DNA of 64,000 bases from Verrucomicrobiota bacterium (GTDB lineage: Bacteria; Verrucomicrobiota; Verrucomicrobiia; Limisphaerales; UBA9464). The stretch is from positions 1-64,000 of the forward strand of contig VHCX01000009.1 of NCBI GenBank assembly GCA_016871615.1, written 5' to 3'. Positions 7,819 to 14,298 of the stretch are shown in pieces (positions within the stretch are counted from its first letter, which is position 1; each line of letters begins with the position of its first letter). The notes beneath the pieces were generated by a model, which worked only from the letters and a program-made list of their open reading frames with translations, did no database searches and was not told the origin of the DNA. Made by a program: the position numbers and the translations under genes.

Positions 7819-9585
7819 ATGAGCGAACCACTGGAGATCAACCTCGACCTCGACAAACTATTCCAGCCTGCCTGGGCCACCTCACCGACGGACCCCAACA
7901 AGTATGCCCGGTACGATGGCACCGAAGGGGAATCCCGGGGGGACCGGCGTTTCGGTCGAGGCGACCGCCCTCCCCGCCGCGACGGCGGGTTCGGCGGGCC
8001 CCGCGGAGGTCCGGGCGGCGATCGTGGACCCCGTCCCGGGGGCTTCGGCGGACCCGGCGGACCACGTTCTGGCGGTGACCGGGGCCCGCGCCCCGGAGGC
8101 GATCGCGGACCGAGGCCCCAGGGTCAGGGTGGCGGCGCACCGGGCATCGCCTGGGATCCCAAGGGCGGCCCCCGGCGCGATGGTCCGGGCCGGGGCCCGC
8201 GTCGTCCGGACTTCCGTCCGGAGCCCCTCATCCCGGTCGAACTCACGATCACGCCCGAACCGGGTGGCGTCAGTTCCCTCGCCCGGCAGATCAAGCTCAG
8301 CGGCCGCGCCTACCCGCTCTTCGAGGTGGCCGGTCTCGTGATGCAGAAGCCCGACCGCTACGCGGTGGGCTTCAAGGTCATCAAGCGCCGCGACGAGGCC
8401 GCCAAGAAGGACGTGCCCGTCCAACCGCTCTTCGTGTGCAGCCTCGACGACACCCTCTGGCTGAGCGAGGCGGCCGCGACCGACCACGCCCTCAAGGCGC
8501 ATTTCGACACCTTCTACCAGACGCAGAAGCTCCCTTGCGACCCTCCCAAGGGCGTCTGGACGCTCGTGGCGCAGTGCGGGATGACCGGCGAACTGCTCGG
8601 ACCCCCGAATTTCCACGGGTACCAGGAAAAGTTGCGCAAGCTGCACGCCGACCGCTTCTCCCGGATGAACTTCGACGCGTACAAGAACCGCGTGAAGATC
8701 GTCAAGGACGAGGCCGTGGTGAAGCAGTGGACCGAGTCGGTCAGCTTCCGCTTCGAGTACACGGCGCTCAACGTGCCGGAGCCCAAGGTGTTCCAGTCCA
8801 TGGACGAGGTCCGGGCCCACTTCATCGAGGTCCACCAGCCGACCATCATCCGGCAGGTCGATTCCTTCGCGCCGAAGGCCGATGTCAAGCTGCCCGGGCC
8901 GCTGCAGACCCTGACGCGCGTCGCGCTCGACAAGGAAAAGCGGTTCCCGATCCGCATCGCCACGGCCCTCAGCGGCACCTTCGCCTCGATGGGTCTCCAG
9001 TTCTTCAAGCGTGACAAGACGGTGGTCCACGTGGCCGTGGCGCGCCCGCATCATCTCGACATCGAGACCAGCGTCGTCTCCGAGACCACCCGGAAGATCA
9101 TCGAGCACATCAACGCCAACGTCGGGACCAACCGCAAACGCTTGGTCGAGACCCTCGCGCCGAGCCCGGCGCCCGCCGAGGCCCCGGCTGAGGGTGGAGC
9201 GGCCCCGGCGCCGACGCCGTTGACGGCCGAGCAGCAGGCCGTGCTCAACGACCTGCACTGGCTCATCCATCAGGGCCATGTCATCGAGTTCGCCAGCGGC
9301 ATGCTCGAGACGGCCAAGAAGCCGGCCCCCCGCCCGGCCCCGGCCCCGAAGCCCGGCCGGAAGGCTGACAAGCCCGCCGGTGACGCGGCCGCGACCCCGG
9401 CGGTCGAGGCTCCTGCGGCGATCCCATCCGACGAATCCATCCCGGCGGCCGAAATGGCGGCGACGCTGGCCCAAGAGGCGCCGGCCGAGGAGTCCTCGAC
9501 GCCCGCCCTGGGCCAACCGGCGGCCGAAACGGCGGCCGAGCCCGCTGCCGAGGCGGCCGCGGAGAATTTGCCGCAGACGGCCTGA
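7819..9585 (+). CDS. Unrecognised RGG/proline-glycine-rich protein with large conserved-looking core
   Basis: A 588-residue protein with no family I can name. Residues ~1-30 form a short acidic start. Residues ~35-130 are a low-complexity Gly/Arg/Pro/Asp region with repeated GGDRGPRPGG-like units, resembling RNA-binding RGG boxes. Residues ~135-440 look like a folded core that includes VWTLVAQCGMTGELLGPPN and a long charged helix-rich part. The last ~140 residues are Ala/Pro/Glu-rich and disordered. There is no signal peptide, so it is likely cytoplasmic. It follows scpA by about 150 bases and is followed by a clear intrinsic terminator. RNA binding or translation regulation is a guess from the RGG region. 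Confidence 0.7.
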   Translation: MSEPLEINLDLDKLFQPAWATSPTDPNKYARYDGTEGESRGDRRFGRGDRPPRRDGGFGGPRGGPGGDRGPRPGGFGGPGGPRSGGDRGPRPGGDRGPRPQGQGGGAPGIAWDPKGGPRRDGPGRGPRRPDFRPEPLIPVELTITPEPGGVSSLARQIKLSGRAYPLFEVAGLVMQKPDRYAVGFKVIKRRDEAAKKDVPVQPLFVCSLDDTLWLSEAAATDHALKAHFDTFYQTQKLPCDPPKGVWTLVAQCGMTGELLGPPNFHGYQEKLRKLHADRFSRMNFDAYKNRVKIVKDEAVVKQWTESVSFRFEYTALNVPEPKVFQSMDEVRAHFIEVHQPTIIRQVDSFAPKADVKLPGPLQTLTRVALDKEKRFPIRIATALSGTFASMGLQFFKRDKTVVHVAVARPHHLDIETSVVSETTRKIIEHINANVGTNRKRLVETLAPSPAPAEAPAEGGAAPAPTPLTAEQQAVLNDLHWLIHQGHVIEFASGMLETAKKPAPRPAPAPKPGRKADKPAGDAAATPAVEAPAAIPSDESIPAAEMAATLAQEAPAEESSTPALGQPAAETAAEPAAEAAAENLPQTA

Positions 9586-9665: not shown

Positions 9666-10520
9666 GTGACCCTGCAGGAGGAAATCCAACGCCGGCGCAC
9701 CTTCGCGATCATCTCCCATCCCGACGCCGGCAAGACGACCCTCACCGAAAAACTCCTGCTCTACGGCGGCGCGGTGCAGCTGGCCGGCTCGGTCACCGCC
9801 CGCAAGAACCAGCGCGCCACCACCTCCGACTGGATGGAACTGGAGAAGAAGCGCGGCATTTCCATCAGTTCCACGGTGCTGCAGTTCGAGTATTCCGGCT
9901 ACCGGATCAACCTGCTCGACACTCCCGGCCACAAGGACTTCTCCGAGGACACCTATCGCGTGCTCACCGCCGTCGACGCCGTCATCATGGTCATTGACGC
10001 CGGCAAGGGCGTGGAGTCCCAGACCCGCAAGCTCTTCGAGGTATGCGCCCGACGCGGCGTGCCGATCTTCACCTTCATCAACAAGCTCGACCGGCCGTCC
10101 CGCGACCCGATCCAACTGATGGACGAACTCGAGGCCGTGCTGGGCCTCCGTTCCTGCGCCATGAACTGGCCTCTGGGCAATGGACCTGAATTCCGGGGGA
10201 TCTACGACCGGGCCGAGAAGAAGGTGCACCTGTTCGAACGCGTGGTGGGCGGCATGTATCGGGCCCCGGTCAACGTGACCGGGCTCGACGACCCGATCGT
10301 GGGCGAGAAGCTCGATGAACTCACCTACGCCACGGTGCGCGAGCAGATCGAGATGGTGGAACTGGCCGGGGCCTCCTTCGACCATGGCGAGGTTCTGGCC
10401 GGAAGGCTTACCCCGGTGTTCTTCGGTTCGGGCGTGAACAACTTCGGCGTCCAACTGCTGCTGGACCGCTTCCTGCAATATTCGTCTGCGCCCCGGGGCC
10501 GTGCGGTTGCCACGGAATAG
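9666..10520 (+). CDS. prfC: Truncated peptide chain release factor 3-like GTPase (G domain only)
   Basis: A 284-residue protein closely resembling the first half of RF3, the GTPase that recycles RF1/RF2. It starts at GTG 9666 (TLQEEIQRRRTFAIISHPD). It carries G1 SHPDAGKTT, the switch segment ARKNQRATTSDWM, G3 DTPGHKD and G4 NKLD, and ends shortly after FFGSGVNNFGV. Normal RF3 is ~530 residues and continues with two beta-barrel domains that contact the ribosome. Here the frame stops at AVATE and no continuation exists in any frame before the convergent gene at 10601. It is either a gene truncated by deletion or a shortened lineage form. The G motifs remain intact. Confidence 0.85.
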   Translation: MTLQEEIQRRRTFAIISHPDAGKTTLTEKLLLYGGAVQLAGSVTARKNQRATTSDWMELEKKRGISISSTVLQFEYSGYRINLLDTPGHKDFSEDTYRVLTAVDAVIMVIDAGKGVESQTRKLFEVCARRGVPIFTFINKLDRPSRDPIQLMDELEAVLGLRSCAMNWPLGNGPEFRGIYDRAEKKVHLFERVVGGMYRAPVNVTGLDDPIVGEKLDELTYATVREQIEMVELAGASFDHGEVLAGRLTPVFFGSGVNNFGVQLLLDRFLQYSSAPRGRAVATE

Positions 10521-10600
10521 CCGGGAGTCCCGGAGTCCCCCAGTCCCCGGCCCCCAAGCGACCTGGAATCACTCCGGGGCTCGGCACGGGCCGTCCGCGT

Positions 10601-11599
10601 TCAACGCGACGATGCCTTCGATCCCGTGGCCCGGGATGGCTTCAACGGCTTCGGGGACTTCTTCGGGGTCTCGCCAGACGTGGACGCCCGGGCGGGTTTC
10701 GCCCGACCGGCGGCCTTCGGGCCACGGCCCGGGAAGGTCAATTCGGCGATGCCGGATTTGTCGAGTTCACCCAAGCCGGCGGCGACCATCCGCTGGTACT
10801 GGCCCAGGGCGGCTTGGGCGAGCGGAAGCTTCACCCGGGCCTGCTTCGCGAGTTGGACGGCGATGCCGGAATCCTTGGCCGCATGGGCGGCGCTGAAGTA
10901 GCAGGCGTGGTCGCGCTTCTGCATGTCCTCGCCGTCGGTCTCGAGCACCCGCGAGTTGGCCCCGGTCTGAGAAAACACCTCGCGGAGCATCGCCAGGTCG
11001 AGACCCAGGGCGGCCCCGAGGCCCAGGCCCTCGGCCAGACCTGCGGTGTTGATGTTCATCACCATGTTGACCAGCGCCTTGACCTGCGCGGCGGTTCCGG
11101 CCGGACCGATGCGCCGTCGCGAGGCCGAGAGTACGGCCAACACCGGTTCGGCCCGCTCGCAGGCCGCCGCCTCGCCACCGATCATCAGATAAAGGGTTCC
11201 CTGCCGGGCCTGGGTGATGCTCGAGGCCATGCAGGCCTCGACGCTCTGGGCCCCGACGGACTTCGCACGGGCCTCCACCGTGACATGGGTCTGCGGGCTG
11301 ACGGTGGCGCAATTGATGAACAACCGCTGCGCGGCCCCCTTCAGCAGGCTGTCGCCCTTCGTCGCGAACAACGCCTCCATGGCCGCGTCATCGGTGACGA
11401 CCGTGATCACCACGTCGGCCAGGGCCGTCACGGCGGCCAGACGTGCCGGTGCCTCGCACCCCAGCTCGGCGGCCAGCGCCTGGGCCTGCTTGCGACGAAG
11501 GTCATGCACGGCGGTGACCGCGAATCCTGATTCCTTGAGGCGGCGGGCCATGTTGGCCCCCATGCGTCCGACTCCCACACAGGCGATTCTGAGGCTCAT
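10601..11599 (-). CDS. NAD(P)-dependent beta-hydroxyacid dehydrogenase (3-hydroxyisobutyrate dehydrogenase family)
   Basis: A 332-residue member of the HIBADH/tartronate-semialdehyde reductase family. The Rossmann fold starts at IACVGVGRMGANMA. The substrate region has a SITQARQGTLYLMIGG segment (family form usually GxxxAxxGxLxxMxGG). The KALVNMVMN segment carries the expected catalytic lysine, and the all-alpha domain follows. About 40 extra residues at the C-terminus are Lys/Pro/Ser-rich and probably disordered. ATG 11599 was chosen because the glycine-rich loop follows directly; the longer ORF adds 17 unlikely residues. The exact substrate is unknown, and glyoxylate/succinic-semialdehyde reductase activity is an alternative. 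Confidence 0.85.
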   Translation of the reverse strand: MSLRIACVGVGRMGANMARRLKESGFAVTAVHDLRRKQAQALAAELGCEAPARLAAVTALADVVITVVTDDAAMEALFATKGDSLLKGAAQRLFINCATVSPQTHVTVEARAKSVGAQSVEACMASSITQARQGTLYLMIGGEAAACERAEPVLAVLSASRRRIGPAGTAAQVKALVNMVMNINTAGLAEGLGLGAALGLDLAMLREVFSQTGANSRVLETDGEDMQKRDHACYFSAAHAAKDSGIAVQLAKQARVKLPLAQAALGQYQRMVAAGLGELDKSGIAELTFPGRGPKAAGRAKPARASTSGETPKKSPKPLKPSRATGSKASSR

Positions 11600-11646
11600 G
11601 AGGGTCTGATTCCCGGTCTTCGATCCTGGATCTCTGGTCTCGTCCC

Positions 11647-14298
11647 TCAACGCTCGTTCCGCACCCCTGCGGTGACCCCGGAAGCCGTGGCCCGCGGATG
11701 CGACAGGTCGAGGAGGTCGATCAGGACCCGCTCGGCCTCCCGGAGATTCACGTCGGCGGCAACCCCCTCCTCCTCCTCCTCGCCGTCCTCCTGTCCGGCC
11801 TCGCGCTGCCGGCGGCGCTCGGCGGCGGCATCCTTCCCGTTGCCGGCCTTCAGGGCGCGTGCGTCGCGGGCGGTGGCGGCGACGACCGGCTTGGCCGCCT
11901 TGGGCTCCGGAAGCCCGGCCTGGGAGGCGTTCTTGAGCGTGATCTCGTAGGTCAGGGGTTCGGTCTCGTTGCGACCCCGGATCTCCGTCTTGCGCACGGC
12001 AGCGCGGTCCCGGTCGGCGTCCATTTCCTGGCGACGCTTCTTCTCGTTCAGCGACACCGTCCGGTCGGCCAATTGCTTGCGGTAGCGTTCGATGTCCTCA
12101 CCGATGTAGGCGTAGTCCTTGTCCTTGGACACCCGGTCCCCCGACCGCTTCTGAAGTTCGGGAAGAGCCCGGGTGAACCGGTCGGTCTTCTCGAAGCGGA
12201 TCGGCGGGATGGTGTTCCATGGCAGTGCATTGCTCAGGGCGGACTCCCCGATGTCGGCGAAGTTGTTGATGCTCGGAAGCACCACGTCGGGCACCACCCC
12301 CTTGAGCTGGGTCGAGGAACCCGAGGGCCGGTAGAACTTGCTGATGGTGACCTTGACTTGGCCAGGTTTTCCCGCACCGCGATAGAAGGGTTCGAGGCTT
12401 TGGAGGTTCTGGACGGTGCCCTTGCCATGGGTGGAGCTGTCGCCCACCACCACCGCGCGCCCGTAGTCCTGAAGGGCACCGGCGAGGATCTCGGACGCCG
12501 AGGCGCTGAAACGGCTGGTGAGCACCACCAGGGGGCCGTCGTAAAGGACGTTGGCGTCGTCATCCTCGAGGATGCGCTGCTGGCCGAGCGAATTGACCAC
12601 CTGGACCACCGGTCCGGTCTTGATGAAGAGCCCGGTGAGGCTGACGCATTCCTCCAGCGAGCCGCCCCCGTTGCGACGGAGGTCGAGCACCACGCCGTCG
12701 ACCCCCTCGGACATGAGCTTGCGCAACAGCTTCGCGACATCCGCCGTCGGGCTCTTGGTCACGCCGTTGCCGCCGATCGCGCCACTGTAGAAGGCCGGCA
12801 GGTCGATGACGCCGATGCGGTTGGTCTTTCCCGGGCCGCCGGGCATCAGGACCAGCTTGGCCTTGGCCTCCTGCTCCTCGAGCGGGATGGTGTCACGGGT
12901 GATGGTGACGCTCTTCCGGGTGCTCAGGTCCGCACCGCTGGGGATGTAGGTCAGGGTCACCTTGGACCCCTTGGGCCCCCGGATCTGCTCGACCACCTTC
13001 TGCAGCTTCTCGTCGATGACATCCACCGCTGCCTGACGGTCCTGGGCCACGGCCACGATCTTGTCGCCCGCCTTGAGGGACTTGCTCTTCTCGGCAGGGC
13101 TGCCCGGCTTGATCTCGGTGATGGTCGCATAGCCGTCCTCGCTCGTGAGCACGGCCCCGATGCCGACAAAGGACAGCGTCATCGACATGCTGAATGCCTC
13201 CTCCTCGCGCGGCCCGAAGTAGTTGGTGTGAGGGTCATAGGAGTGCGCCAGCGAATCGAGGTACCACTGGAGCACCTCCTTGGACTCAAACTGCTTCAGG
13301 TTGCGCATCACCCGGTTGTAGCGGCGGGTCAGGGTCTTCACGATCTCGTCGTGGCGATCTCCCTGGAGGTTCGCCTCGAAGTAGGTCCGAAGGTCGCCGG
13401 GCCCACGGAACTTGCCGGCCTCGGCCAGCTTGGCCACGACGGGCGATCGGTTGGTGGACAGGTGCGCGTGGAGACGGATCTCGAGGTCGGCCAGGTAAAG
13501 GTCGGCCACCTTCTTGCCTCCGGAAAAGAGCGGCTTGGCGGGCTTCTTCGCCTCGGCCGGCTTGGGTGGATTCGAGGCGGCCGCATTGGTGGCCGCACCC
13601 GGGGCCTCCGCATCAGGCGGCTGGGTCATCAGGATCCACACATTGGTGGCCATGGTGGCGAAGTCCCGGTTGAGCTTCTCGGAGAGGTACTCGAAGCGCA
13701 GGCGGTCCTTCCAGAGACCCTGCAGCTCGGCCTGATCCCTGGGGCGGGCGGCCTCCTTCCGGTTGAGGAGGATCCTCGTGTCGGCATCGAAGGTGAACTT
13801 CTCGGTCTTGAGCAGCGACTGGACGAGGGCGTATTGCTGGTCGATCCGCTGAAGATAGCGGTTGAAGATCTCGTAGGCCGGACGGGTGTCACCCCGGCGG
13901 AGCGTGAGGTCGTCGAGCTGGTGGCGGTAGGCGGCAAACTCCTCGTAGTCGGCCGACGTGAAATACAGGCGCTGCGGGTCGAGCGATTCCAGATACCGCT
14001 CGAAGAAGCGCTCCGACACACGGTCATCGAACTCCTTCCGGAGGAAATGGGTCCTCTCGATCATCCGGGCCGCCAACCGGGCGATCTCGCCGCTGGACTC
14101 CTCCGGGGCGAGGGTCTTGGGATCGGTGAACTTCGAGGGAAGCACCCCGGTGTCCGGAGTGGCGGCATGGAGCGCCGGCGAGGGCGCGGCCAGATCGCCC
14201 GACGATTTGCCCGAACCTTTGGCCGCGGGGGAGTCCTTGGCGAGGCCACCGAACTGCAGGCAGAGGCAGGCCAGAAGCGACAGCACCCTATGTTTCAT
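11647..14298 (-). CDS. prc: Tail-specific (C-terminal processing) periplasmic protease
   Basis: An 883-residue S41 protease of the Prc/Tsp type. It degrades periplasmic proteins with nonpolar C-termini and trims envelope proteins. It has an N-terminal signal peptide (MKHRVLSLLACLCLQFGG), a helical N-terminal domain, a PDZ domain at about 365-450, the S41 core with SASASEI (nucleophile serine near 598) and HGKGTVQ (general-base lysine near 624), and a C-terminal DUF3340-like region ending in a Glu/Arg-rich tail. ATG 14298 is the only start giving a signal peptide; the 1273-residue ORF upstream of it is a shadow. A good promoter abuts the start codon. Confidence 0.9.
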   Translation of the reverse strand: MKHRVLSLLACLCLQFGGLAKDSPAAKGSGKSSGDLAAPSPALHAATPDTGVLPSKFTDPKTLAPEESSGEIARLAARMIERTHFLRKEFDDRVSERFFERYLESLDPQRLYFTSADYEEFAAYRHQLDDLTLRRGDTRPAYEIFNRYLQRIDQQYALVQSLLKTEKFTFDADTRILLNRKEAARPRDQAELQGLWKDRLRFEYLSEKLNRDFATMATNVWILMTQPPDAEAPGAATNAAASNPPKPAEAKKPAKPLFSGGKKVADLYLADLEIRLHAHLSTNRSPVVAKLAEAGKFRGPGDLRTYFEANLQGDRHDEIVKTLTRRYNRVMRNLKQFESKEVLQWYLDSLAHSYDPHTNYFGPREEEAFSMSMTLSFVGIGAVLTSEDGYATITEIKPGSPAEKSKSLKAGDKIVAVAQDRQAAVDVIDEKLQKVVEQIRGPKGSKVTLTYIPSGADLSTRKSVTITRDTIPLEEQEAKAKLVLMPGGPGKTNRIGVIDLPAFYSGAIGGNGVTKSPTADVAKLLRKLMSEGVDGVVLDLRRNGGGSLEECVSLTGLFIKTGPVVQVVNSLGQQRILEDDDANVLYDGPLVVLTSRFSASASEILAGALQDYGRAVVVGDSSTHGKGTVQNLQSLEPFYRGAGKPGQVKVTISKFYRPSGSSTQLKGVVPDVVLPSINNFADIGESALSNALPWNTIPPIRFEKTDRFTRALPELQKRSGDRVSKDKDYAYIGEDIERYRKQLADRTVSLNEKKRRQEMDADRDRAAVRKTEIRGRNETEPLTYEITLKNASQAGLPEPKAAKPVVAATARDARALKAGNGKDAAAERRRQREAGQEDGEEEEEGVAADVNLREAERVLIDLLDLSHPRATASGVTAGVRNER

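Follow-up and report, generated by a model that had tools for sequence, protein, structure and literature searches.

The DNA analysed here, referred to as the window, is a stretch of 64,000 nucleotides from a Verrucomicrobiota bacterium of the Limisphaerales family UBA9464 (contig VHCX01000009.1, positions 1 to 64,000). It carries a short gene of the release factor 3 (RF3, prfC) family between two unrelated neighbours, with the following features.

7819 to 9585, + strand: upstream neighbour, a 588-residue protein without a Pfam match, which belongs to the conserved surroundings of the short prfC gene in some of the genus.
9666 to 10520, + strand: N-half of prfC, complete, 284 residues, RF3 domain I (G domain with the G' insert), with a conserved GTG start and a TAG stop.
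9717 to 9740, + strand: G1/P-loop, HPDAGKTT, invariant in the protein alignment.
9918 to 9932, + strand: G3, DTPGH, invariant in the protein alignment.
10080 to 10091, + strand: G4, NKLD (form NKxD), seen in the protein alignment.
10488 to 10517, + strand: C-terminal tail APRGRAVATE, what is left of the domain I-II linker at the end of the gene; relatives have a conserved ..PRGR and then a few variable residues.
10601 to 11650, - strand: convergent downstream neighbour resembling 3-hydroxyisobutyrate / 6-phosphogluconate dehydrogenases, a conserved context in close relatives.

Matches of prfC-family models to the N-half cover only positions 4-283 of about 527-529, TIGR00503 aligning over positions 5-283 with 398 bits in a profile search of the organism's own genome (contig C9). 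The protein aligns with residues 8-284 of Escherichia coli RF3 and its best PDB matches are all RF3. The best models are NF001964 and TIGR00503, with EF-G far below, which identifies a G domain of the RF3 subfamily of translational GTPases, and the GSG region is present in addition to the motifs listed above. This agrees with the sequence-only reading of the locus, which had described an RF3 GTPase domain standing alone with its G motifs intact, ending at a clean stop and lacking domains II and III. No remnant of the missing C-half lies between the N-half and the dehydrogenase-like gene, and a search of the whole genome gave no RF3 domain II/III match within the window, the sole full match to these domains being placed on another contig.

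Scanning for promoters and terminators around the N-half revealed nothing above chance. A TAGGCT/TTAGAC-like motif is found roughly 10-15 nt before the GTG of the N-half in many family genomes (e.g. L054, L020, L016), and a Shine-Dalgarno-like sequence is mostly absent from these starts; judging from such start regions, the N-half mRNA in these genomes is possibly leaderless or may have a very short leader. The N-terminal part of the 588-residue upstream protein is rich in glycine and arginine.

The remainder of RF3 is a gene at another site of this genome (G000), outside the window.

G000:C14:54657-55424, + strand: C-half of prfC, 255 residues, domain II and the RF3-specific domain III, with its own GTG start.

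Other GTPases aside, this gene is the only further RF3 match in the genome, which is 95.6% complete in 183 contigs. It corresponds to prfC positions 279-522 (TIGR00503, 227 bits) and scores 128.7 bits against RF3_C (PF16658; cut-off 40.1), so that domains II and III are found in this second gene only; in one relative, both EF-G_D2 and RF3_C match the C-half. It aligns with residues 285-501 of E. coli RF3, and the two halves (8-284 and 285-501) cover the E. coli protein end to end almost without gap or overlap, the cut falling in the flexible linker between domains I and II. Nothing in the genome exceeds the TIGR00503 whole-protein cut-off of 467, the three domains being divided between the two matches of 398 and 227 bits on separate contigs rather than united in one polypeptide; the second complete prfC that would have marked the window gene as a dead copy does not exist here. 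The C-half sits between a mutY-like gene (HhH-GPD and NUDIX_4 domains) and trpB. A GTGA start-stop overlap with mutY was considered as a coupling signal and set aside, as the overlap is not general: most members of the genus have about 30 nt between the end of mutY and the C-half. Two class-I release factor matches indicate that the genes for RF1 and RF2 are both present, and the usual substrates of RF3 therefore exist in this organism.

Both halves occur as separate genes in 31 of the 50 family genomes. Five genomes (67-89% complete) have the N-half alone, three (66-90% complete) the C-half alone, and another three (54-77% complete) have neither half nor a one-piece prfC. The remaining eight (G019, G026, G022, G028, G034, G029, G063 and G059) have a one-piece prfC of 539-547 residues where measured, that of G059 being cut by a contig end, and none of the 50 combines a half with a full-length prfC. 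Throughout the family the N-halves end in ..P(R/K/Q/L)GR followed by a short variable tail and a stop, while the C-halves have start codons of their own (ATG or GTG), which precede a conserved FSGF by 13 or 18 residues in most genera. These comparisons alter how the window gene is to be read. The short form is conserved in related genomes, ending a few residues after ..PRGR; its presence in nearly all relatives within the genus and in most of the family rules out the recent deletion at a genome junction that had been proposed, and there is no sign of a deletion, frameshift or assembly error at 10500-10600, where relatives have the same structure. The alternative proposal of a retained short form holds for the window gene and fails for RF3 as a whole, of which domains II and III form a separate and equally conserved gene. 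The apparent oddity of an RF3 without its ribosome-contacting parts dissolves accordingly, as those parts are encoded elsewhere in the genome.

No split prfC was seen outside the family among 245 genomes of the order and 155 of the phylum; the phylum set includes 41 genomes from outside the family that carry RF3, and in each of them domains II-III belong to an open frame at least 528 residues long. Among 80 RF3 loci from many phyla, only L193, from the same genus, is split, the others being full length or cut by a contig end. Six apparent further cases in the order were rejected, G037 because a contig break lies inside the linker and the two contig ends share sequence, and G073, G075, G143, G219 and G248 because one frame holds both parts. 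Across the order the linker between domains I and II is hypervariable, and it accommodates additional sequence in these same genomes (G037 [L168, L191], G073, G075, G143, G219 and G248); that of G037 contains a stretch ending ..NGDSPDRQDACPT, where the assembly broke. Such a hypervariable linker may have made the split easy to tolerate. Elsewhere in the order, G158, from another family, has two full-length prfC genes (G158:C420:1234-2802 and G158:C503:2701-4266), and the prfC at G154:C143:4539-6348 apparently lies in two frames that meet at model position about 140, through a frameshift or sequencing error.

Pairwise dN/dS values (Nei-Gojobori, own script) are 0.01-0.13 for both halves, within the range of one-piece genes, in comparisons with up to about 0.6-0.8 synonymous differences per site. 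Positions were taken as conserved if at least 97% of a set of 71 one-piece RF3s of other lineages share them; these number 118, with 75 in the N part and 43 in the C part. In the 24 split genomes tested, these residues are retained without exception (1800/1800 in the N-halves and 1032/1032 in the C-halves). On this codon and residue evidence both halves are under strong purifying selection and are not decaying fragments. Distances of the two halves are only weakly correlated after correction for rpoB (partial r 0.30), and the rate of the C-half, scaled to rpoB, is somewhat higher where prfC is split (1.48) than where it is one piece (1.22); both observations weigh against the two-subunit reading given below. 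AlphaFold2 single-chain models have a mean pLDDT of 79.8 for the N-half and 84.0 for the C-half, and RF3 structures make up the top 21 Foldseek matches for each model; each half is thus predicted to fold as its own part of RF3.

The two genes therefore qualify as a fission pair: intact, co-occurring and complementary parts of a single ancestral protein, without overlap. RF3 is not truncated in this organism but encoded by two separate genes that are conserved across most of the family, pointing to a factor in two pieces. We consider it very probable that prfC underwent fission and that the two chains associate non-covalently through the normal interface between domain I and domains II-III to act as RF3, the association and the RF3 activity being what we infer. 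On the ribosome, one-piece RF3 grips uS12 and 16S helices h5 and h15 with domains 2 and 3, its G domain approaches the sarcin-ricin loop and its G' domain is touched by bL12; relative to the free protein, domains 2-3 of bound RF3 are shifted with respect to domain 1 (PMC6076264). The window gene would then encode the GTPase subunit (domain I including the G' insert) and G000:C14:54657-55424 the ribosome-anchoring subunit (domain II and the RF3-specific domain III). On the simplest interpretation, both chains pack as the domains do in one-piece RF3 and follow the same cycle: the grip on uS12 and helices h5/h15 would come from the C-subunit, GTP binding and the contacts with bL12 and the sarcin-ricin loop would fall to the N-subunit, and rotation of the small subunit would then dislodge RF1 or RF2. 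The split would thereby separate two functional blocks at their hinge. It is rather unlikely, though conceivable, that the pair is a dissociable two-subunit GTPase in which the II-III subunit can sit alone on the small subunit and recruits or releases the GTPase subunit; if so, separate expression and assembly would provide a control point that is absent from one-piece RF3.

The alternative that survives best is that both halves function, yet separately: the GTPase half, its ribosome role lost, with another partner, the II-III half as a GTP-independent factor bound to the small subunit, or both. The G domain of a translational GTPase can be stable on its own, the halves are unlinked with gene contexts that differ between genera, and the slightly faster evolution of the C-half in split lineages points in the same direction. 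However, every position conserved in one-piece RF3 is retained, in the G domain and in domains II/III alike, the halves co-occur except in incomplete genomes, and several members of the family carry the same sequence as one chain, so that we regard separate action as distinctly improbable. Less probable by far is that the halves are pseudogene remnants of a dispensable factor in decay. Bacteria can do without RF3 and have frequently lost it, according to the RF3 part of one survey (PMC1780047), and many genomes of the order have no RF3 match above threshold, but the strong purifying selection on both halves and the full retention of conserved residues argue firmly against decay.

Joining of the halves after transcription or translation, by trans-splicing or a split intein, would account for function tolerating the split, but is hardly credible given that the N-half stops a few residues past PRGR, leaving no space for an intein between motif and stop, and that the C-half has its own start. 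An artefact of assembly or binning, whether a fragmented full-length prfC or DNA of mixed organisms, is brought to mind by the draft state of the family genomes (tens to hundreds of contigs) and by the real contig break inside the linker of G037, outside the family, yet its likelihood is negligible when clean stops and starts lie within long contigs, when the same structure recurs in dozens of genomes, when the same C-half is found on the public contig CANHYD010000036.1, and when the halves lie apart on one contig, with different genes between them, in G061 (about 4 kb), G023 (4.8 kb), G035 (9.1 kb) and G004 (173 kb), showing that the split is not a contig break.

The history of the two-piece RF3 was approached through a species tree built from rpoB and EF-G. 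The one-piece genomes do not group together in this tree, with g5 basal, g2 placed with g8 and g9, and three one-piece g6 members nested within that group among split ones; the tree requires three or more changes, and a single clade of split genomes is rejected (AU p 0.0004). In the RF3 tree, on the other hand, the g2 genes group with those of g5 (support 90) and one split clade is not rejected (p 0.125). Together the two trees are compatible with either a single fission, after which two lineages underwent replacement or re-fusion, or repeated fission. The N-half of split g6 genomes and the one-piece prfC of G029 both have zwf beside them, and gatB is near the N-half in G033 and beside the one-piece prfC in G019; these shared neighbours give some indication that the N-half kept the original prfC locus. 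The C-half is found in varied locations, beside mutY/trpB, purL or dnaG. Of these, purL precedes the C-half in G030 and G069 and follows the N-half in G033, and dnaG lies after the C-half in G024 and before it in G031; that these housekeeping genes adjoin different halves, or different sides of the C-half, from genus to genus is perhaps a trace of the splitting rearrangement, or chance.

A naturally divided RF3 offers an experiment on whether the GTP-driven shift of domains through which RF3 acts on the ribosome requires domains I and II to be covalently joined, and a ready-made pair of separable RF3 parts. It also has a practical consequence for annotation: neither half passes the prfC cut-off, and a factor with two coding loci may be reported as truncated or missing. 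We found no prior report of a split RF3 or of translational-GTPase fission in the literature covered, from which subscription papers were mostly absent. According to two surveys of translational GTPases, RF3 has a patchy distribution and has been lost frequently, and their RF3 parts make no mention of a split form (PMC1780047, PMC4342817).

Compared with canonical one-piece RF3 (E. coli 2H5E, 4V85, 6GXM-6GXP; TIGR00503), the split pair has the same domains I-III, conserved residues and predicted folds, and differs in being encoded by two unlinked genes with the chain cut in the domain I-II linker. The one-piece proteins of the family (G019/G026, G022/G028/G034 and G029/G059/G063) have G domains 81-86% identical to the window protein and, in places, the neighbour genes of the split N-half (zwf with G029, gatB with G019), but they hold domains I-III in one chain of 539-547 residues. 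To our knowledge, no other translational GTPase has its G domain and domain II encoded apart, and we know of none that is cut between GTPase and effector domains and kept so across a family. EF-G, LepA, TypA and Tet share the G-domain superfamily with the RF3 N-half, and the sections of PMC4342817 drawn on here report no such separation among them. Nanoarchaeota and other cases of fission likewise have ancestrally single genes encoded as separate half genes (PMC3655853). Those cases belong to reduced symbiont genomes, whereas split RF3 is found in one family with genomes of 2.5-6.4 Mb, and here it is a ribosome-dependent translational GTPase that has been cut between its GTPase and effector domains.
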